Positions 3,875 to 47,327 of a stretch of DNA of 64,000 nt are shown in pieces. Below the pieces are notes generated by a model, which was not told the origin of the DNA, made no database searches, and saw nothing but the letters and a program-made list of their open reading frames with translations. Position 1 is the first letter of the stretch, and the number at the start of each line of letters is the position of its first letter. The DNA lies in assembly GCF_036711975.1 (NCBI RefSeq), contig NC_091971.1, forward strand, positions 4,161,501 to 4,225,500, read 5' to 3'. Position numbers and translations under genes: made by a program. The stretch comes from Onthophagus taurus. Taxonomy: Eukaryota > Arthropoda > Insecta > Coleoptera > Scarabaeidae.

Positions 3875-4301
<427 letters not shown>

Positions 4302-10600: not shown

Positions 10601-11697
10601 ATGAAACAGTACATTTCTATAAAAAGTTAAGTTGAATTAAGTTTTTGATCCAACATAACCGATTATTTACGTTTTAGATTATAGATGGAAAATATACGAG
10701 GATATTAACGTGGTACGATTGTTAAGACTATTTTTTGCGGAACTCTTAGGAACCGCCATACTGGTGTTCCTTGGTTGTATGGCCGATGTTTTACTTGAAT
10801 CTAAAATACAGATTGCTTTTGCGTTTGGATTTGGAGCAATGGTGGCGATTGAAGTAAAAAAAAATCACAAAGGGACATATTTTCATTACTTTGCAAATGT
10901 ACTCTTAATTCTAGACTTTCATAAATACTTCTGGAGCGAATATAAACCCGGCAGTTTCCATCGGATTATTTATAATGGGTCGAAACGCTTTAATAGATTT
11001 ACCGCTATATATAATCGGTCAGTTCGTTGGAGGAATTGCAGGACATGCGTTGATGATGGTTTGTTCTTCAAAATAATTTATTTTTATGTTTTTGAAATGT
11101 TAATATTTTCGTATAGATAATACTTTCGAAGGATGATGAAAATAACTACGTGTCTGTAAAAGGTGTTCCATGTTGTTGTCCTATAAAAGGCTCATACGTA
11201 GGAGATTATCCAGCCTGTCTTTGCGAGTTTTTTCTAACATTTTTATGGGTTGTTGCTATCGGGGCTGCTTATGATTGGCGCAACAGAGATCGACTTGATT
11301 CAGTTTCAGCTCGGATCGGTTTGGTTATTACTGGTTTATATTTAGCTGGGGCAAGTAAAAATTACTACATTTTTTCGCACTTTTTATATTAATCGCAAAG
11401 ATAGTTTTAATAATAATGTATTATAGGCATCTATATCTGGAGCATCTATGAATCCAGCTAGAGCATTGGGTCCATCTGTAAATAATCACTTCTTCGATGA
11501 TTTTTACTGGGTAATAAATAGATTTTTTTATAACAATTTCATACTTGCATTTTTTGATATATATTTAGATGATATTTAGATATATATTTTTTTAGATATA
11601 TTATGTTGGACCTTTAATGGGTGGTATAATAGGATCAGTGTTCTACAGAGCACTTTTTCAAATACCAGAGCCTGGAGTTGATGATGTTGAAACCTAA
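10601..11697 (+). CDS. Aquaporin 1 of the cluster (MIP family, entomoglyceroporin-like)
   Basis: Major intrinsic protein, a plasma-membrane channel for glycerol and/or water. Exons 10601-10625, 10678-10853, 10915-11058, 11117-11350, 11427-11510 and 11596-11697 give 254 residues with consistent phases. The first exon (MKQYISIK plus one base, phase 1) is inferred; it fits the phase of the paralogues and leaves a 52-bp intron. The channel body starts LLRLFFAELLGTAILVFLGC. The first box is ANINPAV (N78-P79-A80) and the second ASMNPAR (N202-R205). The TM5 position of the water-selective His is Tyr190. Loop C contains a Cys cluster (PCCCP). The fourth intron uses a GC donor (GGG|gcaagt), which alone gives the correct phase and lines up with the paralogues. 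This is the only member on the plus strand and the only one with an intact first NPA. Confidence 0.88.
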
Positions 11698-11924
11698 CTC
11701 CGCTGCTACACCAATCTATTAAAAAGCTATTTAGATATAACTATATTTTTTTAATATATATTTCGTAACATTGCCCACTGGTATTGTTTTTAACATGTTC
11801 ATGTTGTTATGTTTTGGGGTTTGACTCAAAATAAAAGTTATTGCTCTCAAAAGAACTATGAATTTGCAATTAGATAGCTAATGATTACAGATTATAGATA
11901 TGCAGAATAGACAAGAGCACTGGA
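11698..11924. other. Spacer, no gene seen
   Basis: AT-rich sequence follows the aquaporin 1 stop and probably includes its 3'UTR; the satellite array begins near 11925. Confidence 0.4.
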
Positions 11925-13310
11925 AAGTACTATAGAAGAAAGAAACTCCGAATAGAAAAGCACTGGAAAGATGTTCTTATAACATCTACACCGCTCTTTA
12001 AATCAAAATGATGGGTATGTTTATGAATACACTGAAGTATTTGGAAGAAAAAAAGTTTTCTTAGTGAATGCTCTATCAGCAACCGATTTGGAGATAAACA
12101 GGATTTTGTGCGAAAAGAATGAAAATCGGTAAAATCGAGATATCTTTATTATTTCCCCATAACTTCTGCGCTACTCTTTAAATTAATATGGTGGGTAAGT
12201 TAATGTATTAATTGAAGTATTATGAACAAAAAATATTGTCTTAATGAATGCTCTATCAGCAACCAGTTCGGAGATAAAAATGATTTTGTGTTAAAAAGAG
12301 CAAGAAATCGACAAAACAGCGATATCTTTATTATCGCTCTTATAACATCTACACCGCTATTTAAATTAAAATGATGGGTATGTTTATGAATACACTAAAG
12401 TATTTCGAAGAAAAGAAGTGTTGTTAGTGAATGTTCTATCAGCAACCCATTTGAAGATAAACAGGATTTTGTGTGAAAAAGAATGAAAATCGGTAAAATC
12501 GAGATATCTTTATTTTTTTCCCCATAACTTCTGCGCTACTCTTTAAATTAATATGGTGGGTAAATTAATAAATTAATTGACGTATTTTGAACAATAAAGG
12601 TTCTCTTAATGAATACTCTATCAGCAACCAGTTCGGAGATAAAAATGATTTTGTGTTAAAAAGAAGTAAAAATCGACAAAATTGCAATATCTTTATTATC
12701 GTTCTTATAACATCTACACTGTTCTTTAAATTAAAATGATGAGTATGTTTATGAATATGCTGAAGTATTTCGAAGAAAAAAGTTCTCTTAGTGAATACTC
12801 CATCAGCAACCGATTTGGAGATAAACAGGATTTTGTGTGAAAAAGAATCAAAATCGGTAAAATCGAGATATCTTTATTTTTTTCCCCATAACTTCTGCGC
12901 TACTCTTTAAATTAATATGGTGGGTACATTAATAAATTAATTGACGTATTTGGAACAAAAAAGGTTCCCTTAATGAATACTCTATCAGCAACCAGTTCGG
13001 AGATAAAAATGATTTTGTGTTAGAAAGAAGTAAAAATCGATAAAATTACAATATCTTTATTATCGATCTTATAACATCTACACCGCTCTTTAAATTAAAA
13101 TGATGAGTATGTTTATGAATATACTGAAGTATTTCGAAGAAAAAAAGTTCTCTTAGTGAATACTCCATCAGCAACTCATTTGGAGATAAACAGGATTTTG
13201 TGTGAAAAAGAATGAAAATCAGTAAAATCGAGATATCTTTATTTTTTTCCCTATAACTTCTGCATTACTCTTTAAATTAATATGGTTGGTAAGTTAATGT
13301 ATTAATTGAA
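11925..13310. repeat. Satellite A, dimeric unit about 364 bp
   Basis: Tandem units of about 182 bp alternate in two diverged versions, making a higher-order unit of about 364 bp. The landmark GATAAACAGGATTTTGTGTG recurs near 12095, 12460, 12823 and 13187. The same family appears at 15640-17285, so it flanks aquaporin 2 on both sides. Confidence 0.93.
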
Positions 13311-13339
13311 GAATCTTGTTCGATGTGTGTGTTATACTC

Positions 13340-13470
13340 TTCGTATTAATGAACGGAAAGGTCTTAAATTGTGTTAATAAACTTTTTAAGTTAATTATTA
13401 TTATTTTATTTAAAAATGTGTAATGTCTAGCTTATGTAATACAGAAAAGTGTTTACTTTTTAGAGAAAGA
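13340..13470 (+). pseudogene. Duplicated 3' fragment of the serine protease gene
   Basis: The stretch TTAATGAACGGAAAGGTCTTAAAT...TTAATAAACTTTTTAAGTTAATT...AGAAAAGTGTTTACTTTTT matches the reverse complement of 9175-9300, i.e. the last codons and 3' flank of the protease, with small gaps. The rest of the gene is absent here. It is therefore a truncated inverted duplicate about 4 kb from the source. Confidence 0.75.
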
Positions 13471-13895
13471 AACCGTTTTTCAAAATTATATTTAGTTTTT
13501 GAGAAAAAAGTGTTCAAAATTGTCCAATTTTTAAGATGACGTAATTTTAGATCTTTTCATAAAAAAGGACATAGAAACCATCTTAAGGTGTAATATTTAA
13601 CAGGAATAACTTAAATACCTTTGATAACGTTTATTTTAGTCAGGTATTCGTTGACATTTAAAGAACTTGTTCTAAATACTTCAAATAAAACAAAAAATTG
13701 CTACTTAACAATAGATAAGTATTTATATTTATTTTATTTAACAGTTATATACAAGATGCGATCATTTCATTTTATACAAACTAACTCTATTCGAATGATA
13801 ATAACGTTAAAAAATTGATTTGTACCTGAATAGGTTAAAACTCCGTTCGGATTTTACAATTTTAATAAACATTTTTCATAAAAATAAATTGAATT
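13471..13895. other. Spacer next to the aquaporin 2 3' end
   Basis: AT-rich DNA in which I see no gene. The open frame at 13621-13818 has no domain and a composition like its surroundings. Confidence 0.4.
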
Positions 13896-15603
13896 TTAAG
13901 CCTTTTCGTTTAATGGGATTCCTTCAGGTGTCCTCGTTTTTTCCGGTTGAGATTTTGTAAAAGCAAACCTGTACAAGATAGCTGCAGCTGCTCCAGCACT
14001 TAACGGACCAACCCAATATACCCAATGACCGGCCCAATCTCCGTTTAATAAAGCCGGGGCAAAACTTCTTGCCGGATTCATGTTAGCACCAGAATAAGGT
14101 CCCTATAAATATAATGAATTAATTAAATAAGATCAAAATTAAATTTTATTTTACTTACACCAGCCATTGCTAAAACAGTGATCATAAATCCAAGACGAAG
14201 AGTCACAGAATCATGTTTATCCGTATTCCTCCAATCCCAAACAGCACAACACGTTAATGTTAGGATGAAAGAGAGGACGAATTCGTTTAATAAAGCTTGT
14301 GGGGCGGTGATTCCCGGGCCAAAAGCTGGGGAACAAGTTCCTACTGCAGCTTCGGGGCCTTTTAAAATTCCAGGTGGAGTCATAGCCTATAAATTAGTTC
14401 AAGGTTAAAAATGCTTTAATTTAAATGTGTAGAGTTTCGCGTTTAATGGCAAGAACTTGTTGAATAACAACTAAGTAAATTACCATGTAGTTCAGGGACG
14501 CTTGTTGCGAATAATCATCGATTACTTACCATTAAAGTGGCGTATCCGGCTAAAGCCCCCAAAAATTGAGCCAAAAAATAAATCGGAACTAACAATAAAG
14601 GTAAATGCCCTAAGATAGCAGCAGCTAATGTTACGATTGGGTTGATATGACCACCGGAAACGTGACCAAAACACTACAAAATAAAAAATTCTATGTTAAA
14701 ATCTAAAACGAAATTTTAAATGAATAATACAAGTAAATACAAAATTATGTCACGTTTAAAAGTGTTACAAATTTACGTTTTCATTCGTATATTTTCAGAC
14801 CTTCCCTTTTGGATAAAGTTCAAACGTTTCGTTTCGTTTCGTCTCAAGGCGCCATCACAAAGTTCATATATCCAAAATTAAAAACGAAACCGTTTAAATT
14901 TTTTTCAACCTCTAATAGCAACTAAAAAGAAGTCGAAATCTCTTTCTATTTATAATTTGAGTTAGTTACAGATTGTTTTTCCATTTACTAAAATTAGGAG
15001 AAGGAATCCTTATTGATCAAACCCTCACGACTTAAAAAACATGTTTGTTCTATTCCTTAGAAAAAAATTCTTAACTTCGTCAATCTTGTTGGTTTTATCA
15101 ATCGAGATGAAAATCGACGAAAACTGATTACACAAATTTTGTGTTTCGACCGAACTTTCTGCACCTAAATTTAGAACTCTTGGCAACAGGTACGGATTGT
15201 TGTTTATCTGGACCTTGTGATCTACACATTGTTGTTCGCTATCATCGTCGATTAAGGTTATTTGAAGAACCCGTAACCGTTTTGAAATCGATTCGTTATT
15301 TACGAATTATCGGGTTATTTGTTTTTTCTTATTCGGTGTTTATCGAATCAATAATCAGATTCAGGAATTTATGGGGCGATATCGCAGGAATAAATACGAT
15401 AATTGTTGTGGTTACCTGAATCGCCACCATCACGGCTAAACCGAAAATCCAGGCTATTGACTCATGAGGTTGGCCGATTGCTGTCAATTTAACGCATCCT
15501 TGGCAACCCAAAAACACCAAAACTGCTGTACCGAAGAATTCGCCGAAAAATTTGATTACTCTTTCGGCTGTATTGGAATTGTCGTTTACTACTATTTTAT
15601 TTC
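13896..15603 (-). CDS. Aquaporin 2 of the cluster (MIP family, entomoglyceroporin-like), start exon uncertain
   Basis: Minus-strand exons 15416-15603, 14530-14673, 14159-14386 and 13896-14102 encode 255 residues plus a partial first codon. Key segments are [19 protein letters not shown], the first box [10 protein letters not shown] (NPI instead of NPA), [20 protein letters not shown], and the second box [19 protein letters not shown]. The TM5 His position is Ala (LAMAG|GPYSG). The first exon listed begins with two bases of a codon, so a short phase-1 start exon must lie upstream, as in the paralogues. A candidate is ATGCCGG|gtaagt at 21645-21651 (minus), which would make a 6 kb first intron containing satellites A and C. 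The C terminus is polar ([19 protein letters not shown]). Confidence 0.9.
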
Positions 15604-15639
15604 CTGAAAATAAAAAAAAATGTATTTAATGAAATAAAT

Positions 15640-17285
15640 GGTACTCTTAGTGAAATGATGTATCGGCGATTTTGTGTGAAAAAGAATGAAAATGGGTAAA
15701 ATCGAGATATCTTTATTTTTTTTCCTATAACTTCTGCGCTTTTTTTAAAATTAATATGGTGGATAAGTTAATGTATTAACTGAAGTATTTTGAACAAAAA
15801 AGGTTCTCTTAATGAATACTCTATCAGCAACCAGTTCGGAGATAAAAATGATTTTGTGTTAAAAAGAGCAAGAAATCGACAAAACAGCAATATCTTTATT
15901 ATCGCGGTTATAAAATCTACACCGGTGTTTGAATTAAAATGTTGGGTATGTTTATGAATACACTGAAGTATTTCGAAGAAAAAAGGTGCTCTTAGTGAAT
16001 GCTCTATCAGCAACCGATTTGGAGATAAACAGGATTTTGTGTGAAAAAGAATGAAAATGGGTAAAATCGAGATATCTTTATTTTCGTTCCTATAACTTCT
16101 GTGCTTTTTTTAAAATTAATATGGTGGATAAGTTAATGTATTAATTGAAGTATTTTGAACAAAAAAGGTTGTCTTAACGAATACTCTATCAGCAACCAGT
16201 TCGGAGATAGAAATGATTTTGTATTAAACGGAAGTAAAAATCGAAAAAACAGCAATAGCTTTATTATCGTTCTTATAACATCTACATCGCTCTTTAAATT
16301 AAAATGATGGGATTGTTTATGAATACACTGAAGTATTTCGAAGAAAAAAAGTTCATTAGTGAATGCTCCATCAGCAATTGATTTTGAAATAAACAAGATT
16401 TTATGTGAAAAAGAACGAAAATCGGTAAAATCGCGATATCTTTATTTTCTTTCCTATAACTTCTGCATTACTCTTTAAATTAATATGGTGGGTAAGTTAA
16501 TGCATTAATTGAAGTATTTTGAACAAAAAAAGTTCTCTTAATGAATGCTCTATCAGCAATCAGTTCGGAGATAAAAATGATTTTGTGTTAAAAAGAGCAA
16601 AAAATCGACAAAACAGCAATATCTTTATTATTGTTCTTATAACATCTACACCGCTCTTTAAATTAAAATGATGGGTATGTTTATGAATACACTGAAGTAT
16701 TTCGAAGAAAAAAAGTTTATTAGTGAATGCTCCATCAGCAACCGATTTTGAAATAAACAACATTTTATGTGAAAAAGAACGAAAATCGGTAAAATCGAGA
16801 TATCTTTATGTTCTTTCCTATAACTTCTGAGCTACTCTTTAAATTAATATGGTGGGTAAGTTAATGTATTAATTGAAGTATTTTGAACAAAAAAGGTTGT
16901 CTTAATGAATACTCTATCAGCAATCAGTTCGGAGATAAAAATGATTTTGTGTTAAAAAGAGAAAAAAAATCGACAAAACAGCAATATCTTCATTATTGTT
17001 CTTATAATATCTACAGCGTTCTTTAAATTAATATGATGGGTGTGTTTATGAATACACTGAAGTATTTCGAGCAAAAAATGTTCTGTTGGTGAATACTCTA
17101 TATGCAACTGATTTGGAGATATAGAAGATAAAGTGTTGAAGTGAACAAAATACCTAAAAATTAAAGATATCTTCGTTATCTTCGCTATAACTTCTATATT
17201 ACTCCTTAAATTGAATCGATGAGTATTTATATGAAGTTTTTGAACTAGAAAGATACTCCTAGTAAAATCTTTTAGCAGCATCTTT
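15640..17285. repeat. Satellite A, second array
   Basis: This is the same unit of about 364 bp (two halves of about 182 bp) as at 11925-13310 and in the same orientation, with about 4.5 copies. Minus-strand open frames in it repeat with the array and are not genes. The array starts about 40 bp upstream of aquaporin 2 coding exon 15416-15603. Confidence 0.93.
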
Positions 17286-23620: not shown

Positions 23621-23624
23621 GCAC

Positions 23625-26202: not shown

Positions 26203-29200
26203 TTAAATAACGGGTTCTTTTTCGGAACTTTTCGGTTGCTGATCTTTCCCTTCTATGGATATTCCGTGCATTAAAACGAATCGGTACAAAATCGGAGCTA
26301 TTAAACCTCCGCCTAAAATCGGTCCAACCCAATAAATCTAAAAAAAAAAATTAATCAATTTTATTACTAAATCGTTATGAAATTAATAAAAAATAGATGA
26401 CAAATGCAAATTAATACAGAAGTTTAAAAAAATAAATTATGTAATGTGATATCGATACAAAATAAGTTGGATTTATCGATTTGATAAATTTTTCGATAAG
26501 CTTTCAAAACAATATTTACATGGTGAGATAAAAATTTGTAATGCAAATAATGCTGTAATGGAGAATTTAAAGTTTACCATCCACTTTACATTCGTATCTT
26601 AATGTAAATACTACATGGGTTATCATAACTTTATGAACAAAGAAAGAATAATTTTTTTACCCAATGTGCGTCCCAGACTCCGTGAAAGATAGCTGGGACT
26701 AAACTACGTGCTGGATTTAATCCACTTCCAGTAAATTGTGCCTAATAACAAATAAAATAAGATATTAAACTTCTAGTACAATACTGCGCGTCTGAAGATG
26801 GATAGTCTTAATTCTAGTTTTAGTTAAATAAAAATATACTGAATAACAATTAAAACTAGAGCTAACACTAATACTACAACTAACACTAGATCTAGAACTA
26901 GAAACATTCGGGTTTAGCCGTGCGTTTCTTAACCCTCTGTGACAGAATTAAAATACACTGAGTAAATTAGTGTACTGAGTGTATTTTGGAGAACTAGACT
27001 TATTCTAAATTAAAGCTCAAAGCTTTCTCTTTAATATGGTGTATAATAATTGATGGGTTGGTTTGGAAAAATGTTAAGAAAAAAAATGTTGAAACAAATT
27101 TTACATTTTCGTATAACCTAGAAGTGTCAAAAAAGATGCTAATTTAAAAATTCCTGGAAGCCGTGTTTATTGAAATTAAGGAATGAGACTTATTTTAAAT
27201 TAAAGCTCAAAGCTTTCTCTTTAAAATGATGTATAATAATTGTTGGGTTGGATGGGAAAAATATTGAGAAAAAAATGTTGAAACAAATCTTACATTTTCG
27301 TATAACCTAAAAGTGTCAAAAAAGTTGCTAATTTAAAAATTCCTGGAAGCCGAGTTTATTGAAATTAAGGAATGAGACTTATTTTAAATTAAAGCTCAAA
27401 GCTTTCTCTTTAAAATGATGTATAATAATTGTTGGGTTGGATGGGAAAAATATTGAGAAAAAAAATATTTAAACAAAACTTACATTTTCGTATAACCTAA
27501 AAGTGTGAAAAAAGATGCTAATTTAAAAATTCCTGGAAGCCGAGTTTATTGAAATTAAAGAATGAGACTTATTTTAAATTAAAGCCCAAAGCTTTCTCTT
27601 TAAAATGATGTATAATAATTGTTGGGTTGAATGGGAAAAATATTGAGAAAAAAAATGTTGAAACAAAGCTTACATTTTCGTATAACCTAAAAGTGTCAAA
27701 AAAGATGCTAATTTAAAAATTCCTGGAAGCCGAGTTTATTGAAATTAAAGAATGAGACTTATTTTAAATTAAAGCCCAAAGCTTTCTCTTTAAAATGATG
27801 TATAATAATTGTTGGGTTGAATGGGAAAAATATTGAGAAAAAAAATGTTGAAACAAAGCTTACATTTTCGTATAACCTAAAAGTGTCAAAAAAGATGCTA
27901 ATTTAAAAATTCCTGGAAGCCGAGTTTATTGAAATTAAAGAATGAGACTTATTTTAAATTAAAGCCCAAAGCTTTCTCTTTAAAATGATGTATAATAATT
28001 GTTGGGTTGAATGGGAAAAATATTGAGAAAAAAAATGTTGAAACAAAGCTTACATTTTCGTATAACCTAAAAGTGTCAAAAAAGATGCTAATTTAAAAAT
28101 TCCTGGAAGCCGTGTTTATCGAAATTAAGGAATGTGACTTATTCTAAATTAAAGCTCAAAGCTTTCTCTTTAAAATGATGTATAATAATTGTTGGGTTGG
28201 ATGGGAAAAATATTGAGAAAAGAAATATTGAAACAAATCTTACATTTTCGTATAACCTAAAAGTGTCAAAAAACATGCTAATTTAAAAATTCCTGGAAGC
28301 CGTATTTATCGAAATTAAGGAATGAGACTTATTTTAAATTAAAGCTCAAAGCTTTCTCTTTAAAATGGTGTATAATAATTGTTGGGTTGGATGGGAAAAA
28401 TATTGAGAAAAAAATGTTGAAACAAATCTTACATTTTCGTATAACCTAAAAGTGTCAAAAAAGTTGCTAATTTAAAAATTCCTGGAAGCCGTGTTTATTG
28501 AAATTAAGGAATGAGACTTATTTTAAATTAAAGCTCGAAGCTTTCTCTTTAAAATGATGTATAATAATTGTTGGGTTGGATCGGAAAAATATTGAGAAAA
28601 AAAATGTTGAAACAAAGCTTACATTTTCGTATAACCTAAAAGTGTCAAAAAAGATGCTAATTTAAAAATTCCTGGAACACGTATTTATCGAAATTAAGGA
28701 ATGAGACTTATTTTAAATTAAAGCTCAAAGCTTTCTCTTTAAAATGATGTATAATCATTGTTGGGTTGGATGGGAAAAATATTGAGAAAAAAAATGTTGA
28801 AACAAATCTTACATTTTCGTATAACCTAAAAGTGTCAAAAAGATGCTAATTTAAAAATTCCTGGAAGCCGTGTTTATCGAAATTAAGGAATGAGACTTAT
28901 TCTAAATTAAAGCTCAAAGCTTTCTCTTTAAAATGGTGTATAATAATTGATGGGTTGGATTGGAAAAATATTAAGAAAAAAAATGTTGAAACAAAACTTA
29001 CATTTTCGTACGAGATAAGTCTGAAGACGCATAGCTAAACCCGAATGTTTCAAGTTCTAGGTCTAGTGTTAGTTCTAGTTTTACACTAGCATTGTTACTA
29101 GAACTAACTCTAGACCTAGAACTAGAAACATTCGGGTTTAGCCGTCTTGAGAGACGTGCGGCTAAACCCGTATGTTTCTAGTTCTTGCTAGAATGCTCTG

Positions 29201-30248
29201 CTTCTTTTAAGACGGCTAAATCCGAATGTTTCTAGTCCTAAATCTAGTGTTAAAACTAGAGTTAACACCAACACTAGACCTAGAAGTAGAAAGTTTCGGG
29301 TTTAGCCGTTTTCAGACGCCCTGCTAAACAGGTTTTTTTTTTCCTGTTTTGTATACAGAACATTGCAGAAACATTAATATTTATTTATTTTATTTGTACA
29401 CATTTGAATTACTTACAACTGCTAAAAATATCGCAGAAAGCATTAAACCAATCTTTAAAGCTAAAGAATCATGAAGTCCTTTCATTCTAGGATCCCAAAC
29501 TGAACAAAGAGCCATTACTAAAAGGAACGATCCGATCGTTTCAATGAAAAGTGCCTATTGATAAAAAAAAATAATAAATTAATTATGAAATTGAATCTTA
29601 TCTTACTATATTTATATCATTCCAAAGGATTATTTATTTCTATTTATATAACTTAATATGTTTAATTACCATTATACAATAAAATAAGATATCTCATTTA
29701 TGATTATTACCTGAACATCGGTGACTCCACTACTTGGGACTGTAACACATAAATGTTCTGCCGACGTTTCAGGAACTAATGCCTAAAAAAAATTTTGTTA
29801 AAATCATTTTTTAATACACCTTATTTATTACCATTATTAAACCATATCCAAGAAAAACCCCAATAAATTGAGCTAATACATAAAAAGGAAACATCGTAAT
29901 TTTAACCGTTTGCATTATTAAAGCTGCTATTGAAACGATTGGGTTGAAATGAGCGCCGGAAATGTGTCCAAATAACTACAAGTTCAATTAAAAATTAATT
30001 GCATTTTAATAAATATTAATTTACCTGAATGGCTAAAGCAATTCCTAAACCAAAATTAAAGGGATGAAACTGAAAACTCATATTTGGATATGTATTTGAA
30101 ATACATCCCATACAACCCAAAAATATATATGTTGCTGTTCCTAAAATTTCTCCCACCATTATAATTAAGGTTGATATAACTTTGAATTAAAAAAAAAATT
30201 AATAAATAAATAATAATATTAATAGTATTAATTACCTGTAGATTTCAT
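26203..30248 (-). CDS. Aquaporin 3 of the cluster (MIP family, entomoglyceroporin-like)
   Basis: Complete gene with seven coding exons on the minus strand: 30236-30248, 30025-30179, 29832-29975, 29711-29782, 29417-29554, 26661-26741, 26203-26337; 245 residues, all phases consistent. It starts MKST in a 13-bp exon with a phase-1 donor. Body: GEILGTATYIFLGCMGC, first box GAHFNPIVSI (N67-P68-I69, not NPA), second box GSGLNPARSLVPAIF (N183-R186). The TM5 His position is Phe171. The short exon 29711-29782 encodes the extracellular loop before TM4/5. Intron 5 (26742-29416) is filled with satellite D and palindromic repeat. The Arg of the selectivity filter is kept, and the TM2 Phe is kept (NFGLGIALAIQ). 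Glycerol transport is inferred from the missing His. Confidence 0.93.
26795..26940. repeat. CTAG-palindrome repeat, copy 4
   Basis: Partial copy in aquaporin 3 intron 5, starting at GCGCGTCTGAAGATGG and ending at TTCGGGTTTAGCCGTGCG. It directly abuts the satellite D side. Confidence 0.8.
26980..29010. repeat. Satellite D, unit about 187 bp
   Basis: About eleven tandem units carry GAGACTTATTTTAAATTAAAGC, ATGATGTATAATAATTGTTGGG, TTACATTTTCGTATAACCTA and AAAAATTCCTGGAAGCCG. Central units (27560-28120) are nearly identical, as expected from recent unequal exchange. The array is confined to aquaporin 3 intron 5. Confidence 0.95.
29015..29330. repeat. CTAG-palindrome repeat, copy 5
   Basis: It is inserted at the end of satellite D, between GTCTGAAGACGCATAGC and GTTTTCAGACGCCCTGC. 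Together with copy 4 the family brackets the satellite D array. Confidence 0.85.
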
Positions 30249-30575: not shown

Positions 30576-33500
30576 TTATTTTCTACCTGCTTTTGCTAAA
30601 CCTTCAATAAAAATGAATCTATAAAATAATGCTGTTCCGGCCGAACCTAATATTGGGGCTACCCAATATACCTAAATGAAGATTGAGAATTAATTAAAAG
30701 TGATTTAGTTAAAATTAAATTATTACCCAATGATCTTTCCACATGTTTTGGAAAATTGCGGGGGCTAAACTTCTTGCTGGGTTCATACTTGCTCCGGTAT
30801 ATTGGGCCTAAAAAGATTTTAATGCGTTAGTAGAACACAATTCGTATCAAAATCATTGATACGAGATAATCATCGATAATCATTGAGTACTTAGTCTTAT
30901 ACAATCATTTAGTCATCTATAAGCAAAATCAGATCTTCCATTTGTCATATCTAGTCTTATGAGAGCAGTATCTAGTCTTCTATTGGCAGTATTCAGTCTT
31001 TTGGAAGCAATATCCAATCTTCTAGTAGAATCTAATCAGATTCTTCTTGTGTAAGATTAGATACTGCTTATAGAAGACTAAATACTGTTTATTATATAAT
31101 ATAAAATTAGGTACTGCCAATGTAAGTCTAGACGGTGTTGCCAATAAAAGTCTGGATACTGCCAATAGAAGATTATATAGTGCTGGCAGAATATTAGATA
31201 TTACTTGCAAAAATATTAGAAGACTGGATATTGCTTGCAAAAGACTGAATACTGCCAATAAAAAACTAGATACTGCTCTCATAAGACCAGATATGACAAA
31301 TGGAAGATCTAACTTTGCTTATAGAAGATTAAATGATAGTATAAGACTAGATATTGCCAATAGAAGATTAGATGCTTCTTGCAGGTTTGTCATTAGCAAC
31401 CTCATTGCAACAATTTAAATTTTCGATTAAACTTTAATAATTCGTATAAAATCGATTTCTTGGAATATGAGTATGAAAATTTCCCAAAATGTTAATAAAA
31501 GTGTCCTCTTTCCAATGAACCAACACGTTTTGAAAAATAACTTTTCGTTTTTGAGAAAACTATATTTGAAGTTTTGATGTTACAATTTTCATCGATAATT
31601 TTCAAAATTCGCTATAAAATTAATTTCTGGAAGGATCCTTGTGGAAATATCTACAGTTATTAATTAAAGTGTCCTCTTTTTAATGCAAAAAGCCGTTTGA
31701 AAAAATCACCTTTAGTTGTTGAGAATTAAATTTTTGAAATGATCGACAATTTTTTCAAATTTAGCAATTTACGACAATTAAGTTTTAAAAATTCGTATAA
31801 AATCCATTTCTTGGAATATGAGTTTGAAAATTTTCCAAAGTGTTAATAAGAGTGTCCTCTTTCCAATAAACCAACACGTTTTGAAAAATAACTTTTAGTT
31901 TTTGAGAAAACAACATTTGAAGTTTTGATAAAATTTTCGATGTTGCAATTTTCATCGATAATTTTCAAAATTCGCTATAAAATTAATTTCTTGAAGGAAC
32001 CTTGTGGAAATATCACCAATTATTAATTAAAGTATCCTCTTTTTAATGCAACAAGCCGTTTTGAAAAATCGCTTTTAGTTTTTGAGAAATAAATTTTTGA
32101 AATGATCGACAATTTTTTCGAATTTTGCAATTTTCGCCGATTAAGTTTTAAAAATTCGTATAAAATCCAGTTCTTGGAATATGAGTATGAAAATTTCCCA
32201 CAATGTTAATAAAAGTGTCCTCTTTCCAATGAACCAACACGTTTTGAAAAATAACTTTTAGTTTTTGAGAAAACTATATTTGAAGTTTTAATAAAATTAT
32301 CGATGTTACAATTTTCATCGATAATTTTCAAAATTCGCTATAAAATTAATTTCTTGAAGGATCCTTGTGGAAATATCACCAATTATTAATTAAAGTATCC
32401 TCTTTTTAATGCAAAAAGCCGTTTTGAAAAATCACTTTCAGTTCTTGAGAAATAAATTTTTTAAATGATCGAAATTTTTTTTCGAATTTTGCACTTTTCG
32501 CCGATTAAGTTTTAAAAATTCGTATAAAATCCATTTCTTGGAATATGAGTTTGAAAATTTCCTAAAATGTTAATAAAAGTGTCCTCTTTCCAATAAACCA
32601 ACACGTTTTGAAAAATAACTTTTAGTTTTTGAGAAAACAATATTTGAAGTTTTAATAAAATTTTCGATGTTGCAATTTTTATCGATAATTTTTAAAATTC
32701 GCTATAAAATTAATTTCTTTAAGGAACCTTGTGGAAATATCACCAATTATTAATTAAAGTATCCTCTTTTTAATGCAAAAAACCGTTTTGAACAATCACT
32801 TTCAGTTCTTGAGAAATAAATTTTTTAAATGATCGAAAATGTTTTTCGAACTTTGCAATTTTCGCCGATTAAGTTTTAAAAATTCGTATAAAATCCATTT
32901 CTTGAAATATGAGTATGAAAATTTCCCAAAATGTTAATAAAAGTGTCCTCTTTCCAATAAACCGACACGTTTTGTAAAATAACTTTTAGTTTTTGAGAAC
33001 ACAATATTTGAAGTTTTAATAAAATTTTCGATGTTGCAATTTTTATCGATAATTTTAAAAATTCGCTATAAAATTAATTTCTTGAAGGAACCTTGTGGAA
33101 ATATCACCGGTTATTATTTAAAGTATCCTCTTTTTAATGCAACAAGCCATTTTGAAAAATCACTTTCAGTTCTTGAGAAATAAATTTTTGAAATGATCGA
33201 CAATTTTTCGAATTTTGCACTTTTCGTCGATTAAGTTTTAAAAATTCGTATAAAATCCAGTTCTTGGAATATGAGTTTGAAAATTTTCCAAAGTGTTAAT
33301 AAAAGTGTCCTCTTTCCAATGAACCAACACGTTTTGAAAAATAACTTTTCGTTTTTGAGAAAACAATATTTGAAGTTTTAATAAAATTTTCGATGTTGCA
33401 ATTTTCATCGATAATTTTCAAAATTCGCTATAAAATTAATTTCTTGAAGGATCCTTGTGGAAATATCACCAATTATTAATTAAAGTATCCTCTTTTTAAT

Positions 33501-36488
33501 GCAAAAAGCCGTTTTGAAAAATCACTTGCAGTTCTTGAGAAATACATTTTTGAAATGATCGACAATTTTTTCGAATTTTGCTATTTTCGCCGATTAAGTT
33601 TTAAAAATTCGTATAAAATCCAGTTCTTGGAATATGAGTATGAAAATTTCCCAAAATGTTAATAAAAGTGTCCTCTTTCCAATGAACCAACACGTTTTGA
33701 AAAATAACTTTTCGTTTTTGAGAAAACAATATTTGAAGTTTTAATAAAATTTTCGATGTTGTAATTTTCATCGATAATTTTCAAAATTCTCTATAAAATT
33801 AATTTCTGGAAGGATCCTTGTGGAAATATCACCAGTTATTAATTAAAGTATCCTCTTTTTAATGCAACAAGCCGTTTTGAAAAATCGCTTTTAGTTTTTG
33901 AGAAATAAATTTTTGAAATGATCCACAATTTTTTCGATTTTTACAATTTTCGCCGATTAAGTTTTAAAAATTCGTATAAAATCCAGTTCTTGGAATATGA
34001 GTATGAAAATTTCCCACAATGTTAATAAAAGTGTCCTCTTTCCAATGAACCAACACGTTTTGAAAAATAACTTTTAGTTTTTGAGAAAACAATATTTGAA
34101 GTTTTGATAAAATTTTCGATGTTGCAATTTTCATCGATAATTTTCAAAATTCGCTATAAAATTAATTTCTTGAAGGAACCTTGTGGAAATATCGCTATAT
34201 CAAGTACATTTCAAGATTTTTATATATTTCTATGTACAAATCAATCATAATATATAAGTAAAATCCTCAATTGATCAAATAACCCCATTTGAAAATTTTC
34301 CCCTTTAAAATGAAAAACAAACTGTAATAATTCATCATAATTCAAATGTAATAAATCAAAACATGTTAAATTCTGGTTACGCGTAATGTGTAGAAGTAAA
34401 TATAAGATTAAAAATTGATCATTAAAAAAATTAATTATCGATTAAACTTCTTCATAACTTGATGTGTTCGACAAGTTTAAGTACATTTCAAGATGTTCAT
34501 AATTTTTTTTTTAAACGAATCAATCATGAATACAAGTATCAAAAATTCCTCAATTAATCATATCAGAAGTAAATATAATCAAAATAAATAATCGTAGAGG
34601 AAGAACCTTTAGAAATAAGAGGAATAAATATAAAGACCAGAAAAATAATCGATCATAAATTGTTACAAGATTTTTCAAACAATCGAGATGACTTTTAATC
34701 TCAATCGATTCATAATCATAATTTATACAAGTATCTAATAATAAATTTACACATTTTTAGGATAATTGAACAGTAATAAAGTTCAAAATGTTTTATACCA
34801 TATTGATTATGCGGGATTAACAACGACAGGAATTATCTGGAATCAAGGTTTAGATTTATTGGGAAAAAAAGTATTTATCTGTAAAACTTAATTGGCTTAC
34901 CGTGGCTATAAAGATGCTCCCAAGAGTTAATCCGAACCGAATCGGAATTGAATCAGTGTTTTTCGTATTTCTATGATCCCAAACTGCACAGCAGATTGAA
35001 ATTAAAAATCCACTGATTATCATTTCTATGATAAAACCCTAAAAATTAAAAAGAAAACATAAATAATTCTCCTTCACATCATTGTAGAAGCCAAGAATAA
35101 AACTTTATGGATTCATTAGCCTAATTTGGTCTACACTCTATCAAATCCTTATTCTAACGTCAAAACCCTTTTGTACTATTATTCGCTTTAAAAGCACCCT
35201 TTTCAATGTATTTAAGCTTAAATCTCCTTCATATTAGATTAATTAGGTTCCTACAATAACTTATTAAGGGTAAAAAGTCATAAATGTTGAATTTACATGA
35301 TAAGATTGAAGAGTTTTATTAGCAAAGCCCCACATTTAGAATTATTACTCATTTACCCTTGTAGGCAAGCATCTTTATTCTGTAACAAACAATTTTCTAA
35401 CCGTAATAGAAACATTTTAAATACAAATTAAGGAGTAAAAAATGTTTAGATTCAATTAATATGAAAAAATCATCAATGTAGATCACCCAACATTAATTTA
35501 TAACGTTTTAGGAAGCTGTAATTCTTTTCAAGGTTTCTCAATTTTGAATTTTAAGTGAAAGTTAGGCAACCCAATATGCGCTTAAATGTGTAATTACTTC
35601 AAAAAAGTGATTTAACTCAAAATATTCAAGAAATATGAACAAATTGATTAATTCCAAAGAAAAATGAAGAATCTGTTAATAAAATTTGCTCTAAATAATA
35701 CTACAAAAGTTAATTACTTGATAAACTTTGATGTAGGGGTTGATTTGGGTCACACAAACTCCTTTATTATCATTTTCATTGGTTACTAACTAAAAAAGAA
35801 AATTAATGTAAAACAAGTTAAATGAAATAATTACGCTTTTTAACCATCAATAATCCGTATCCAAGTAAAGCACCAACAGTTTGACTTATAAAATATATAC
35901 CAGCTAAAACAAGATCAATTTTTTTTAGAATAACCGCAGCTATTGTTACACAAAGATTATAATGTCCACCAGAAATATGTCCGTACATCTAAAATCAAAT
36001 TATTTACTAATTTAGTTAATATTAAAAATTAATCTAGTTTAGTTTACCTGCACAGCAACTGCAACAGCTAATCCAAAACTTAAAGCACCAAAATGTGGAG
36101 CAAATGATACTTCTGCACCAATACATCCCATACAACCCACAAACAACAATGTGGCCGTTCCGAAGACTTCAGCAATGGCTTTTTCGAGTATCGTATAAAT
36201 ATTTTCATCTGAATTAAAAGAAAGAAGAAACATCGTTGATTTCCAAACGAAATTAGTTTTATAACTAAACTCAGAAACAAGATAAAACTAATCCATCAAA
36301 CCAATTCAACCACAATTTTTAATAAAACCATAAATTTATATTGCAGTTGTAAACCTCAACAAATACATAAAAACAGATTTTTCTCTCTAATCGTTTCTTT
36401 TTACCTCAATAATAATAAAATGAATTAATTTAATTAATTTACCTTCTTTCACGACTACTATTTCTGCATATTCCGGTTTTAAAGACAT
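30576..36488 (-). CDS. Aquaporin 4 of the cluster (MIP family), main first exon
   Basis: Seven minus-strand exons: 36443-36488 ([15 protein letters not shown], phase 1), 36048-36208, 35845-35988, 35718-35789, 34901-35038, 30727-30807, 30576-30671; 245 residues, the same length as aquaporin 3. Body: [17 protein letters not shown]. The first box is [10 protein letters not shown], so NPA has become N80-L81-C82; the second box [15 protein letters not shown] (N196-R199) is intact. The TM5 His position is Phe184. Splice sites and frame are clean, so this looks like a functional gene with an unusual pore rather than a pseudogene. Intron 5 (30808-34900) holds the palindrome at 30889 and satellite E. 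A second candidate first exon lies at 40360-40414. Loss of the first box could alter selectivity or gating; this is inference. Confidence 0.92.
30889..31350. repeat. Inverted repeat of about 120-bp arms (foldback type)
   Basis: The left arm (30889-31015: ACAATCATTTAGTCATCTAT, ATCTTCCATTTGTCATATCT, CTATTGGCAGTATTCAGTC) is mirrored by the right arm (about 31225-31350) at roughly 85% identity, around a core built of the same word set (GATACTGCCAATAGAAGA). The words resemble those inside the hAT element at 6540-7480. Confidence 0.8.
31400..34195. repeat. Satellite E, dimeric unit about 360 bp
   Basis: About seven to eight units alternate between a half with GTGTCCTCTTTCCAATGAACCAACACG and a half with GTATCCTCTTTTTAATGCAA; each half is about 180 bp and begins with related TCGTATAAAATCCATTTCTTGG / TCGCTATAAAATTAATTTCTTG. 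The array is confined to aquaporin 4 intron 5. Confidence 0.94.
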
Positions 36489-37990: not shown

Positions 37991-37999
37991 CCGTAAAGC

Positions 38000-40359: not shown

Positions 40360-40414
40360 CTTTTATCACTTTTTCTTCTTTTGCCGGTGTTTCTTGATCA
40401 GGCGAATGAACCAT
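40360..40414 (-). other. Alternative first coding exon for aquaporin 4
   Basis: The minus strand reads ATG, MVHSPDQETPAKEEKVIK, then one base and a GT donor (AAAAG|gtaatt), i.e. phase 1. That is the same phase as the main aquaporin 4 first exon, so it would join to 36208 in frame. It lies between aquaporin 4 and aquaporin 5, and no nearer downstream acceptor belongs to a separate gene. An alternative promoter that changes the cytoplasmic N terminus is inferred. Confidence 0.6.
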
Positions 40415-40792
40415 TTCCACTATTTTAGATTAACAAACAAATCACAAAGGATATCGTGGGTTTCCGTTGCAAAATAAAATCAGAGCGACTTTAGATACGG
40501 TATTTTCGTCTTATCAAGTGAAAAAAAAAATTAAATATGCTTAGAAAACCGGTGAGTTATAAATTGATTTTGTCAGGCACCTTGAAATAACCGCAAATTA
40601 TTGCATCGTTAATTGGAAACAAAAACGAGTTATCATGTTGTTTACCTTTATTTTTATTAATTAATTTTTTAAAATTATAACTTTATTTTTGTATTATATT
40701 TTTCTTTTTTTAGAAAAAATAAATATAACAACAATAATAATTTAAGTAATTAATTTCTGGATTAATTTTTTTTTTGATAAGAATCTTTTTAA

Positions 40793-43700
40793 TTATGCTT
40801 TGGTACCATTATCGCCGATCTCGTCTAATTCTTGTAATTCATCGGGTTTTGCTACTTCAGGTTTTTCATAATATAAAAATTTGTAGAATAAAGCTGCAGT
40901 TATAGCGCCAGCTGTTGGTCCAACCCAATAAATCTACAAATTTAAATTACAGATTTCTGTAAATTTAATTAAATTTAATGCATTTGTATTATTTAGAAGA
41001 AATGAAAAATCTCTTTTTCCACATTGAGTTAAAACTAAAAACATTAAGGTTTAACCATATATCTTTCAAGACGGCTAAATCTGAATGTTACCAATCCTAA
41101 GTTTAGTGTTAGTTCTACTTTTAACTATTATTCAGAACTAGGTTGTTGTATATTTTTATTGTAGCAAAACTAGAACTAACACTAGACCTAGAACTAGAAA
41201 CATTCGGATTTAGCCGTCTTGAGAGACGTGCGGCTAAACCCGAATGATTCTAGTTCCAGGTCTAGTGTTAATTCTAGTATTAGTTCTAATTCTAGTTGTT
41301 ATTCTATGTTAGGTTATTGTATATTTTTTGCACAAATCTGATTTTATGGTACAAATGAGTTAAATAAAACATTAATTTTCTATATTTACCCATTGATTAC
41401 TCCATATTCCATTAAGTAAAGCGGGAGCAAAAGATCTTGCTGGGTTCATACTTCCTCCAGTGAATTGAGCCTAAAATAAAAAGAATTATAACATCACACT
41501 TAAAATTTAATTTAATAAAAAATTACGCTAGCACTTGCTAAACCAGTTATAGCAAAACCAAATCTTAACGGAAGTGAATCGGTGTTAGCATGATTTCTTT
41601 TATCCGTTATTCCGCAAAGAAGTAAAATAAGAATTCCGGATGTGATTGCTTCAATAGCAGTAGCCTAAAAAAAATATTATATGATTCCTTAATATTTTTT
41701 TATATATTTATGAGATTACTTGGAATGGTGAAATATACGGATTTGGTTGTGTCACGCAAAGATGATGAATTGTGCCGTTTCCACCCGGACTCGGTATATG
41801 AACCTCCGTGAAATGCTCGGTTAATAACAATTTAATAAGTCCAAATCCAAAAATGCCCCCCAACATTTGCGCTGTAATATAAATACCCGCCACTAATGGT
41901 TTCATAGCTCCAAAAATAACCACGGCTATTGTTATAATCGGGTTTATGTGTGATCCACTGATATGAAGGAATATCTAAGAATTCAAATTTGAATTAGATA
42001 TCGAAAAGTTTTTGGAGAATTTAATTTTTACCTGTACTATCACCATGACGGCTAAACCAAAAGTTAAAGCTGGCGCAAAACCGGGAAATGGATGTTTTAG
42101 GTCAAAAGCACACCCCATGCAACCAATAAATAATAACATTGCTGTTCCGAAAAATTCCGCTAGGAAAACTCTAATGATTGTTTCAAAAAATGATTTTTTA
42201 TCTGTTGCATCTAAAATTTTTAATTAATTAATTAAATATATATTCAATAAAAAATAGACATTTGGATTAAAACAATTTTATCTCAATGCTTAATTATCAT
42301 AAACCTCAAAGTTATCAATTTTTAACCACAACATAGCATGATTGTTCTAAATTCTAAGAATAAAATTAAGAAATCGTATCTCAAGAACCAATTGGGATAT
42401 TACGATAAAATAAGATACATTTTAAAGCAAATTTAATGAAGATGCAATGTGCCATAAATCATTTCTAATTTTTCATAAACCTCGTTGTTAGGAGTCATTA
42501 AGCTCAACCTAATAAATGTGACTATATTAGACATTTGGATTAAAAACATTGTATCTCAAGAAGGAATTGAGATATCGTTATGAAATAAAAAGCATTTTAA
42601 AGCAAATTTAATGATGGTATAATGTGCCACAAGTCATTTCTTAATTCCCATAAACCTCGAAGTTATCAATTTTTAAACACAACTCGACATGTTTGATTGT
42701 TCTAAATTCTAAGAATAAAATTAAGAAATCGTATCTCAAGAACCAATTGAGATATTACGATAAAATAAGATACATTTTAAAGCAAATTTAATGAAGATGC
42801 AATGTGCCATAAATCATTTCTTATTTTCCATAAACCTCGTTGTTATGAGTCATTAAGCTCAACCTAATAAATGTGACTGTTTTAGACATTTAGATTAAAA
42901 ACATTGTATCTCAAGAAGGAATTGAGATATCGTTATGAAAGGAAAAGCATTCTAAAGCAAATTTAATGATGGTATAATGTGCCACAAGTCATTTCTTAAT
43001 TCCCATAAACCTCGAAGTTATCAATTTTTAAACCCAACTCGACATGTTTGATTGTTCTAAATTCTAAAAATAAAATTAAGAAATCGTATCTCAAGAACCA
43101 ATTGAGATATCACGATAAAATAAGATGCATTTTAGAGCAAATTTAATGAAGATGCAATGTGCCATAAATCATTTCTTATTTTCTATAAACCTCGTTGTTA
43201 TGAGTCATTAAGCTCAACCTAATAAATGTGACTGTTTTTGACATTTGGATTAAAAACATTGTATCTCAAGAAGGAATTGAGATATCGTTATGAAATAAAA
43301 AGCATTTTAAAGCAAATTTAATGATGGTATAATGTGCCACAAGTCGTTTCTTAATTCCCATAAACCTCGAAGTTATCAATTTTTAAACACAACTCGACAT
43401 ACTTGATTGTTCTAAATTGTAAGAATAAAATTAAGAAATCGTATCTCAAGAACCAATTGAGATATCACGATAAAATAAGATACATTTTAAAGCAAATTTA
43501 ATGAAGATGCAATGTGCCATAAATTATTTCTTATTTTCCATTAACCTCGTTTTATGAGTCATTAAGCTCAACCTAATAAATGTGACTGTTTTTGACATTT
43601 GGATTAAAAACATTGTATCTCAAGGAGGAATTGAGATATCGTTATGAAATAAAAAGCATTCTAAAGCAAATTTAATGATGGTATAATGTGCCACAAGTCA

Positions 43701-45740
43701 TTTCTTAATTCCCATAAACCTCGAAGTTATCAATTTTTAAACCCAACTCGACATGTTTGATTGTTCTAAATTCTAAAAATAAAATTAAGAAATCGTATCT
43801 CAAGAACCAATTGAGATATCACGATAAAATAAGATGCATTTTAGAGCAAATTTAATGAAGATGCAATGTGCCATAAATCATTTCTTATTTTCTATAAACC
43901 TCGTTGTTATGAGTCATTAAGCTCAACCTAATAAATGTGACTGTTTTTGACATTTGGATTAAAAACATTGTATCTCAAGAAGGAATTGAGATATCGTTAT
44001 GAAATAAAAAGCATTTTAAAGCAAATTTAATGATGGTATAATGTGCCACAAGTCGTTTCTTAATTCCCATAAACCTCGAAGTTATCAATTTTTAAACACA
44101 ACTCGACATACTTGATTGTTCTAAATTGTAAGAATAAAATTAAGAAATCGTATCTCAAGAACCAATTGAGATATCACGATAAAATAAGATACATTTTAAA
44201 GCAAATTTAATGAAGATGCAATGTGCCATAAATTATTTCTTATTTTCCATTAACCTCGTTTTATGAGTCATTAAGCTCAACCTAATAAATGTGACTGTTT
44301 TTGACATTTGGATTAAAAACATTGTATCTCAAGGAGGAATTGAGATATCGTTATGAAATAAAAAGCATTTTAAAGCAAATTTAATGATGGTATAATGTGC
44401 CACAAGTCATTTCTTAATTCCCATAAACCTCGAAGTTATCAATTTTTAAACACAACTCGACATGTTTGACTGTTCTAAATTCTAAGAATAAAATTAAGAA
44501 ATCGTATCTCAAGAACCAATTGAGATATTACGATAAAATAAGATACATTTTAAAGCTAATTTAATGAATATGCAATGTGCCATAAATCATTTCTTATTTT
44601 CCATAAACCTCGTTGTTATGAGTCATTAAGCTCAACCTAATAAATGTGACTGTTTTAGACATTTGGATTAAAAACATTGTATCTCAAGAAGGAATTGAGA
44701 TATCGTTATGAAAGAAAAAGCATTTTAAAGCAAATTTAATCATGGTATAATGTGCCACAAGTCATTTCTTAATTCCCATAAACCTCGAAGTTATCAATTT
44801 TTAAACTCAACTCGACATATTTGATTGTTCTAAATTGTAAGAATAAAATTAAGAAATCGTTTCTCAAAAACCAATTGAGATATTACGATAAAATAAGATA
44901 CATTTTAAAGCAAATTTAATGAAGATGCAATGTGCCATAAATCATTTCTTATTTTTCATAAACCTCGTTGTTATGAGTCATTAAGCTCTACCTAATAAAT
45001 GCAAGAAAAAGCATTCTAAAGCAAATTTAATGATGGTATAATATTACGTTTTCGTCGTGTTTATTAATTCTAATTTCACAATGTATAATTAGGAGTAAAA
45101 TATAGCAATATACAAGTCAAAATTTGACGGAAAATAAACAGATACAATTTACAAAGAAACGAATTTAAATATTTACACTTACATTTTTTTTGTTAATTAA
45201 TTTAAAAAATTAAAAGAAATAAGGATTGTGTAATACCATTAAATATTTAATAATATTAATAATTAAGATGAAAGATATGGATTTTATTTTTGTTAAAAAT
45301 AGAAGATAACTTTGGGTCAAAGTTGATTTAAATGGATTACAGGGGGCAAGGAGTATTTGCGTAATGATTTATAAATGTTAAACATTATGATCGTCAAAAT
45401 TCTCGTTGAGTTTAAAAAAAATGCTAAAAGCTTTTCGATTGTATTGGTACATGAGTGTTTAATGGGATTGTAAATAAATAATATGAAATCTGTGCACTAA
45501 ATACATCGAAATATTAAGTACTTAATCAAATAAATAACTGTATCGATAAGAAATATATATATAATTTTCTATTATTTATTAATTTAGATTTCCTCCAAAA
45601 AATAATTCAAATTGAAAGATGAAAGAATTAACGAAACAGATAATATTTGTTATTTATGATTTTCTTTATCAATTTCAAATTTAAATTAAGTACAATAAAT
45701 TTTTTGATATAATATTCAAATAAAGCTTACCTTGAGACAT
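40793..45740 (-). CDS. Aquaporin 5 of the cluster (MIP family, entomoglyceroporin-like)
   Basis: Minus-strand exons 45731-45740 (MSQ plus one base), 42032-42210, 41720-41974, 41527-41664, 41390-41470 and 40793-40933 give 267 residues with consistent phases. Body: AEFFGTAMLLFIGCMGC; first box GSHINPIITI (N74-P75-I76); second box [17 protein letters not shown] (N203-R206). The TM5 His position is Ala191. Unlike aquaporins 3 and 4, the NPA-box exon and the loop exon are fused (255 bp), giving a longer extracellular loop (PSPGGNGTIHHLCVTQPN). The 3.5 kb first intron is almost entirely satellite F. The C-terminal tail is acidic (DELQELDEIGDNGTKA). An alternative first exon is at 47285-47327. Confidence 0.92.
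41030..41330. repeat. CTAG-palindrome repeat, copy 7
   Basis: In the last intron of aquaporin 5. It shows the TTTAGCCGTCTTGAGAGACG hairpin flanked by inverse CTAG blocks, plus the TGTATATTTTTATTG internal piece. Confidence 0.85.
42265..45045. repeat. Satellite F, dimeric unit about 350 bp
   Basis: Two related halves of about 175 bp alternate: one with AAACATTGTATCTCAAGAAGGAATTGAG and GATGGTATAATGTGCCACAAG, the other with AGAAATCGTATCTCAAGAACC and GAAGATGCAATGTGCCATAAAT. About eight dimers. A block of about 702 bp (two dimers) is duplicated in tandem almost perfectly (43023-43724 and 43725-44426). The array is confined to aquaporin 5 intron 1. Confidence 0.95.
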
Positions 45741-46140
45741 TTTTTTCAAAAATAATTTTTAATCCGATTCGGATTAACTTAATTTATTAAAAAATATTAT
45801 ATAAAATAGATGTTAATAAAAATGATCAAAGATCTTTTTTGCCCAAAAAGCAATGACGTACCACCTAACACTCGTAAACTACAAAACGTACTGGACAGAT
45901 TTATCTCAACAAGTCATATCTTATACGGCGCTTTTTAGAAAATAGGGATGTCGTATTATCGTGTTGATACTAAAACGTTGGTCGTAAAACAAGATCATTT
46001 GCAATCGATTAAAATCAATTTTATTATCTTGTAATTTTAATACAAGTGGTTATATTTCAATGCTTACAATTACTATTTTTATTGAATTATCAATTATATA
46101 AGATTTTAAAAAAAATAATTTATTATGTTTATTAAATTAT
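45741..46140. promoter_or_regulatory. Upstream region of the aquaporin 5 main first exon
   Basis: AT-rich and non-coding. Position next to the MSQ start exon suggests promoter function; I see no defined element. Confidence 0.25.
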
Positions 46141-46149
46141 GTGTATGAA

Positions 46150-46690
46150 AGGTTTTTGGACTTCATTACCAGAATTTTGTGTTCATTCCAACTCTTGTGG
46201 TCTTACTGCCATGTGAGTTCACCATTTTTACACCTTTACTTAGTTCTTAACAAACTAATCAGATGCTGGAGAAATATAGTGCATGCAAATATCTCAATTT
46301 TTTCCTTCCTATTAACAGTTCTAAACAGGTTCTTCATAGTGGTGACTTAGAAAAACATAATCTTATCACTTATCACATCTTCGATGAAATAAGCCCATAA
46401 TAATCGCAACATTGTTGGTCAATTTGATACCGGATGGCATCAATTGTAGTATCTCAACTTAATCATACACTCTGTTGAGTTTTGCCGAGGCATAATAATG
46501 TGATGATCACTTTCAAATTGATATTGACAGTGTTAATCACTGCCGCAAGGCATAACAATATGAGCTGTTCATCACTCAAGACGGCTAAATGTTTAAGGAA
46601 ATATATTGCATCAATAATAAATTTAAACAATTTATTATTAAATACTTATTTTATTGGCTCAGCTTCTAAAGAGTGGATTATATAAACGTC
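46150..46690. repeat. Dispersed repeat G, copy 1
   Basis: GTGGTCTTACTGCCATGTGAG, GTTCACCATTTTTACACC, TTGCCGAGGCATAATAATG, TCACTCAAGACGGCTAAATG and AATTTAAACAATTTATTATT recur in the same order at about 51870-52270. The intervening sequence has diverged and has gaps. It carries GCCGAGG words like the array at 22365. Confidence 0.75.
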
Positions 46691-47284
46691 GATTGATTTC
46701 GTTTCAATTGATTATATATCCGAGGTTTAATGATAGAGAACGATTGAATAACATTAATTGTACACCTTGAAAATCGAAATGTTAATGTCAATTGCAACGT
46801 TATAAAAGGTGAAAGCATTTTTGAATTATATCAGCTTTTCATTATATATTTGTTTAAATTAAATTCGATAAGCACACGAAATGTATTCGAGTAAACAATT
46901 AATTAAATAAATTTGTTATTGAATACAAATGGTGTGCGATAATTTCGATATTAAAATACATAATGGGTTGTGTACTTGAAAAAAGGAAAATTTAAGTCGT
47001 TACAATAACACTCCTCGAAATAAACAATAGACCTCGTTTTGTATGGATAAATTATTACGAAATTACTATTAAATTATATACACGTAAGTACATTTTATGC
47101 ATGTCTAGAAAATATATAATTACCAAAAATTATTTGAATCTTACATAATATATTAAATAAGATATATTAATTAATCAAATTTTTAGAAATTAAAATATAT
47201 CTTAATTTAATAAAGTGTTTTGTTTAAAATGTGCCTTACATCCAAACATTTAATTTAACAAAAAATTGTTGATTACATACTTAC

Positions 47285-47327
47285 ATTTAATAATGCGTAT
47301 TCGTATTTCTTCTAAAAACGATTTCAT
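47285..47327 (-). other. Alternative first coding exon for aquaporin 5
   Basis: The minus strand reads MKSFLEEIRIRIIK, one base, then a strong donor (AAAT|gtaagt), phase 1, and would join in frame to 42210 (giving a Tyr codon followed by ATDKKSFFE). Support is the consensus donor and correct phase only. Confidence 0.5.

Follow-up and report, generated by a model that had tools for sequence, protein, structure and literature searches.

The dung beetle Onthophagus taurus carries, on contig C6 (NC_091971.1) of its 290.8-Mb genome of 33 contigs, five neighboring genes of the MIP (aquaporin) family, all of which lie within the 64,000-nucleotide stretch analyzed here (contig positions 4161501-4225500, hereafter the window). 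Very probably they make up a tandem array of insect entomoglyceroporins (Eglps) of an ordinary kind, in which two genes (B and E) are of the glycerol type and three (A, C and D) are altered, and in which the proximity of a glycerol kinase (GK) gene is incidental. Eglps are understood as channels of the water-selective aquaporin (AQP) branch in which the His that the fifth transmembrane helix (TM5) contributes to the pore filter has been replaced. Our reading draws on gene models, filter residues and a clade that are all observed in this genome. The five genes are laid out as follows, with the four residues of the aromatic/arginine (ar/R) filter given in the order TM2, TM5, LE1, LE2 (LE, loop E), as read from alignment to AQP1, and followed by the first and second NPA motifs.

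10602..11697, plus strand: MIP gene A; ar/R F-Y-A-R, NPA/NPA
10602-10626, plus strand: likely start exon of gene A, read by eye, with the weak donor GTTAAG
10678-10853, 10915-11058, 11117-11350 (GC donor), 11427-11510 and 11596-11697, plus strand: exons of gene A
13896..15603, minus strand: MIP gene B; ar/R F-A-A-R, NPI/NPA
15603-15416, 14673-14530, 14386-14159 and 14102-13896, minus strand: exons of gene B
26203..30248, minus strand: MIP gene C, seven exons; ar/R F-F-S-R, NPI/NPA
30576..36488, minus strand: MIP gene D, exons 36208-30576; ar/R F-F-A-R, first NPA motif NLC
40793..42210, minus strand: MIP gene E; ar/R F-A-G-R, NPI/NPA
42210-42032, 41974-41720, 41664-41527, 41470-41390 and 40933-40793, minus strand: exons of gene E

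A search of the whole genome with the Pfam MIP profile listed 23 exon matches, nine of which fall in the window and belong to these five genes. Each of the five has exons that score above the Pfam cut-off (gene B reached 180.8 bits in an early model that carried one residue too many where two exons meet). The genes were spliced by hand from six-frame translations and the splice borders were verified by script; in the resulting models every reading frame is intact end to end, and the internal borders are AG/GT with the sole exception of one GC donor in gene A, whose intron 11351-11426 is GC-AG where its relatives have GT-AG. The cluster spans about 10602-42210. An earlier reading of the DNA from its letters alone (the sequence-only reading) had proposed five MIP genes, one on the plus and four on the minus strand, and the profile matches and open spliced models bear this out, as they do the 144-bp exon for the first NPA motif that it saw in four of the five (A, B, C and D; in E this exon is fused into one of 255 bp). 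The tiny start exon ending in phase 1, which it took to be common to the group, stands in part: it is clear for gene C (13 nt, 30248-30236), has one candidate for D (36488-36443) and two for E (47327-47285, as first proposed, and 45740-45731), and is likely for A, for which the start-exon script listed no candidate at its threshold; for gene B the search listed none. Since the start exon of E has two candidates, the outer limit of the cluster at 47327 is unsure. An acidic tail, PEPGxxDV, is shared by the C-terminal ends of gene A and two related channels at loci L021 and L022, and is possibly a sorting or binding motif.

Three further Eglp-like genes, F (~0.836 Mb), G (1.469 Mb) and H (7.877 Mb), also lie on C6, the contig that holds all eight (A-H). 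C10 carries a Drip and a Prip gene, C8 a Bib and C5 an AQP12-like gene, which brings the MIP genes of the genome to 12 among the matches listed. These four names were assigned by eye, from motifs that we take to mark the respective groups and not from a database, and Prip consists of two loci ~24 kb apart that we infer to be one gene; Drip (minus strand) and the Prip exons (plus strand) are ~65-90 kb apart.

Phylogenies were built from 13 proteins (A-H, the Drip, Prip and Bib of the same genome, plus two AQPs of solved structure) and from 15 (the same set with E. coli AqpZ and GlpF as bacterial outgroups). In both, A-H form a single clade of their own outside Drip, Prip and Bib (support 100/99 with 13 proteins and 91/100 with 15), and in the 13-protein tree the stem of this clade is long and its nearest outgroup is Drip, weakly, at 80/75. 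The sequence-only reading had called the genes entomoglyceroporin-like and had held that a place in the Drip or Prip clades would speak against this; set beside Drip, Prip and Bib from this genome, the five stand apart, and TM5 His is absent from all of them. Gene E scores up to 117 bits against AQP1, AQP0 and AQP4 (117 being the value for AQP1), 72 against GlpF and 56 against AQP3, a pattern that an Eglp should show and a classical aquaglyceroporin of the GlpF/AQP3 kind should not; E was the one gene scored in this way. The W-G-F-R filter of GlpF occurs in none of A-H.

Within the clade, gene A groups with G and H (100/99), which lie 2.7 and 3.7 Mb from it, and C, D and E group together at 83/86 in the 15-protein tree and are unresolved in the 13-protein tree. 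In approximately unbiased (AU) tests a clade of A-E alone was rejected (p 0.00077), so the cluster is not the product of a single local burst, while a clade of B-E was not rejected (p 0.26). Tests that grouped A-E with Drip, Prip or Bib, leaving out F, G and H, were all rejected as well; they carry little weight, because the same constraints split A from G and H.

In the references the filter residues read as expected: F-H-A-R in Drip, F-H-S-R in Prip, F-H-T-R in AqpZ, F-H-C-R in AQP1, F-H-A-R in AQP0 and W-G-F-R in GlpF. Elsewhere on C6 the filters are A-N-A-R (F), V-I-A-R (G) and V-V-A-R (H), and TM5 is thus without His in all eight genes, its place being taken in the window by the uncharged Tyr (A), Ala (B and E) and Phe (C and D). 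All eight genes retain the second NPA motif and the filter Arg, and the five in the window bear the marks of the MIP family. The first NPA motif varies: A, G and H keep NPA, B, C and E have NPI, F has NPV, and D, with NLC (Asn-Leu-Cys), lacks the Pro.

It might be supposed that A-E are water channels of the Drip/Prip type that simply lost their His. Drip is, as noted, the closest sister, and the 144-bp NPA exon occurs in Prip too; against these points stand the single well-supported clade on its long stem, the presence in the genome of Drip and Prip as genes of their own, each with its His, and an intron before the second NPA motif that all eight genes have and that both Drip and Prip lack. 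We regard this supposition as highly improbable. The intron positions themselves call for care, for those that the sequence-only reading described as shared are indeed shared, but are not diagnostic, as Prip and Bib have some of them as well. Both introns that bound the 144-bp exon are present in Prip. The intron between TM5 and the second NPA motif is of phase 0 in all of A-H, and a phase-0 intron of Bib falls in the same column of the alignment, next to a gap of four residues in that protein, which suggests that the intron is probably old and was lost in Drip and Prip. For the same reason we dropped it as a mark of the Eglp-like clade. One further intron is common to C, D, E and F only.

What the five channels would carry can be predicted by analogy with published work on other Eglps. 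According to Finn et al. 2015 (PMC4518291), 207 published Eglps all lack TM5 His, 73% of the substitutions are Ala or Ser, and a change from His to a small residue (Ala, Ser or Val by experiment) suffices to admit glycerol. A small TM5 residue of this kind, which is usual though not universal in Eglps, is found in B and E and is missing from A, C and D. By this rule B and E, together with H on the same contig, are likely glycerol channels, and B and E would most likely let glycerol, urea and some water flow passively down their gradients. Phe and Tyr are bulkier than His, which makes A, C and D doubtful as glycerol channels; their aromatic TM5 residues would most likely change selectivity and leave them weak glycerol channels or none. 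Water transport is known from the family, the honey bee channel Am_Eglp 1 having been shown to carry it (PMC7505460).

One could go further and regard A, C and D as decaying or non-channel copies, given the aromatic TM5 of all three and the NLC that D has for NPA. Their frames are all intact, however, the second NPA motif and the filter Arg persist throughout A-H, and altered NPA motifs are described for the Eglps of Rhyzopertha dominica and Dendroctonus armandi as well. Decay is on this evidence unlikely.

Several considerations weigh against assigning the cluster to the Eglps. The deep branches of the tree are weak, as the modest support for Drip as nearest outgroup illustrates. Its insect references are the genome's own Drip, Prip and Bib, with no named Eglp sequence among them, and Eglp identity is consequently reached by exclusion and by the filter. 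Bib is likewise without TM5 His, its filter reading S-S-gap-R. The introns do not single out A-H, the NPA exon being found in Prip and the intron before the second NPA motif in Bib. The filter argument is a prediction of permeability, and in the salmon louse some Glps conduct glycerol despite a TM5 His (PMC4539701), so that one residue does not settle what a channel admits. On balance A-H are nevertheless best read, from their sequences, as entomoglyceroporins, of which tandem clusters have already been described.

The account of the Eglp family by Finn et al. (PMC4518291) matches the present genes in the replaced TM5 His, the clade of its own beside Drip and Prip, and the repeated tandem duplication that has produced Eglp clusters in Holometabola; the differences here are the eight copies, with TM5 residues Y, A, F, F, A, N, I and V in order from A to H, and the NLC of gene D in place of the first NPA. 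Among beetles, the R. dominica study (PMC8956072) places Eglp1-4 on a single scaffold, where two are neighbors and the other two lie at a distance; three of the four have altered NPA motifs. On a different scaffold of that species ~82 kb separate Drip (minus) from Prip (plus), an arrangement much like that on C10 of O. taurus. In D. armandi, EglpA2 (DaEglpA2) has NPI as its first motif, as do B, C and E, and EglpA1 has NTA; NLC does not appear in the sections of that paper at hand (PMC6688586). The cluster in O. taurus is larger than those of both species, and its eight Eglp-like genes exceed the counts of two to four given in the comparison papers, namely four in R. dominica (PMC8956072), two in D. 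armandi (PMC6688586), four among 12 aquaporins in the medfly (PMC5034548) and three in the honey bee (PMC7505460). The best Protein Data Bank match of an EcR piece of this genome, and likewise that of a USP piece, is a chain of entry 2nxx (Tribolium castaneum), which agrees with a beetle without being proof of one.

The sequence-only reading also placed a glycerol kinase gene 7 kb upstream of the cluster and suggested that the locus could be a neighborhood for glycerol uptake and phosphorylation. The left part of the window holds the following.

1..1185, plus strand: 3' part of the glycerol kinase gene, whose start lies ~785 bases before the window; FGGY_C 110.4 bits for 347-865
3893..3961, minus strand: Sec61 beta exon; PF03911 30 bits, over the cut-off and the only match listed in the genome
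4823-5914: open frame of 363 residues, no Pfam match
9241-10167: trypsin gene, between GK and gene A

The kinase is genuine: its model, pieced together by eye from open stretches and with some exon ends unsettled, aligns end to end with E. coli GlpK at 47% identity (233/492 aligned residues) and keeps the RET, GDQQAAL and GTGCF stretches of that protein. Its distance from gene A is ~9.4 kb and not 7 kb, and the interval holds Sec61 beta, the 363-residue frame and the trypsin gene. GK reads VNGG, with Asn for Asp, where E. coli GlpK and a paralogue at 9.07 Mb on C2 read VDGG. Further upstream of GK, two pieces (36-541 and 2350-3333 of stretch L019) look by eye like a long-chain acyl-CoA synthetase and an acyl-CoA thioesterase, which with GK would form a run of lipid-metabolism genes.

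That selection holds channel and kinase together here, in the manner of bacterial glpF-glpK, gains something from the reality of the kinase, from the adjacency of channel and kinase in E. coli and from the rarity of such closeness. A search of the genome for FGGY domains gave 11 matches in seven loci, six of which (all but that on C7) were read by eye, and from their motifs we take four of the six to be GK-like and two not. C1 and C2, contigs without Eglp-like genes, carry the roughly three other GK-like loci, and among the loci inspected the GK of the window is the only one near an Eglp-like gene; were four GK-like loci placed at random, the chance of one falling this near one of four Eglp loci would be ~0.15%, a figure that is post hoc because the pair was picked from many possible pairs. 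In E. coli 22 bases separate the two genes, which share a strand, whereas here there are ~9.4 kb with intervening genes and four of the five channels on the opposite strand. The remaining GK-like loci are unlinked to the eight Eglp-like genes of C6, and three of the five channels lack the glycerol-permissive residue. Against a glycerol reading of the locus as a whole it may be said that Ala at TM5 is confined to B and E, that the five genes are not one local burst, and that the genome has about four GK-like loci, this GK included.

No report of GK-Eglp linkage in insects stands among the papers listed in the literature searches (20 of 526 and 4 of 4), and glycerol kinase does not occur in the main text of the R. 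dominica paper (PMC8956072). In a moth, glycerol kinase and a channel of the Drip type have been linked, by RNA interference and a predicted interaction, to the glycerol of rapid cold hardening (PMC6428837), and a second moth paper repeats the link (PMC10652857); the portions of these two papers available to us contain nothing on gene neighborhood. A neighborhood held by selection is, all told, very unlikely, and the suggested relevance to cold or desiccation tolerance has nothing in the sequence behind it. A link of GK to the cluster is thus unproven, and its closeness is probably incidental: the kinase is a normal metabolic gene that probably lies nearby by chance or through inherited gene order.

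The window is also rich in repeats. Satellite arrays with units of 180-190 or 355-379 bp (26996-29010, 31424-34193, 42289-45001, 11978-13311 and 15668-17121) fill most of one long intron each in C and D, adjoin the first modelled exon of E upstream and flank B, and one satellite family recurs inverted upstream of GK. We considered whether the 180/360-bp arrays characterize the cluster and discarded the idea, the units being widespread in the genome (at least 353, at least 237 and at least 207 matches for the three tested) and satellites near genes being described for Tribolium euchromatin (PMC3411249, PMC5844308). A second tandem-repeat family, with units of ~115-175 bp that contain an inverted repeat around CGGGTTTAGCCG, forms arrays related at 64-86% (8481-8719, 37254-37808, 47727-49940 and 53116-54347). 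Of the telomere repeats that might point to an insect order, TCAGG has no match in the genome and TTAGG has two overlapping ones at a single place on C3, and they gave no guidance; a telomerase RNA-binding domain profile matched neither this genome nor the controls. Two more genes lie near the right end of the window.

58951-59367, plus strand: TsaD-like gene
63387-63908, minus strand: Obg-like GTPase

The most interesting lead, and a mildly interesting one, is the spread of TM5 residues together with the NLC motif of gene D. A bolder proposal would have the Eglps of this beetle split by their filters into a glycerol type (B, E and H) and a second group (A, C, D, F and G, with aromatic or Asn/Ile TM5) that carries another solute; D would then be a working channel whose central constriction is of a new kind, and all of these genes would be co-expressed with the linked GK. 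We think this decidedly unlikely. The kinase link would matter only if it were recurrent in other beetles. The cluster of O. taurus brings together five neighboring paralogues, with Ala, Phe or Tyr at TM5 and one altered first NPA motif, and these form a natural series for testing the single-residue rule.

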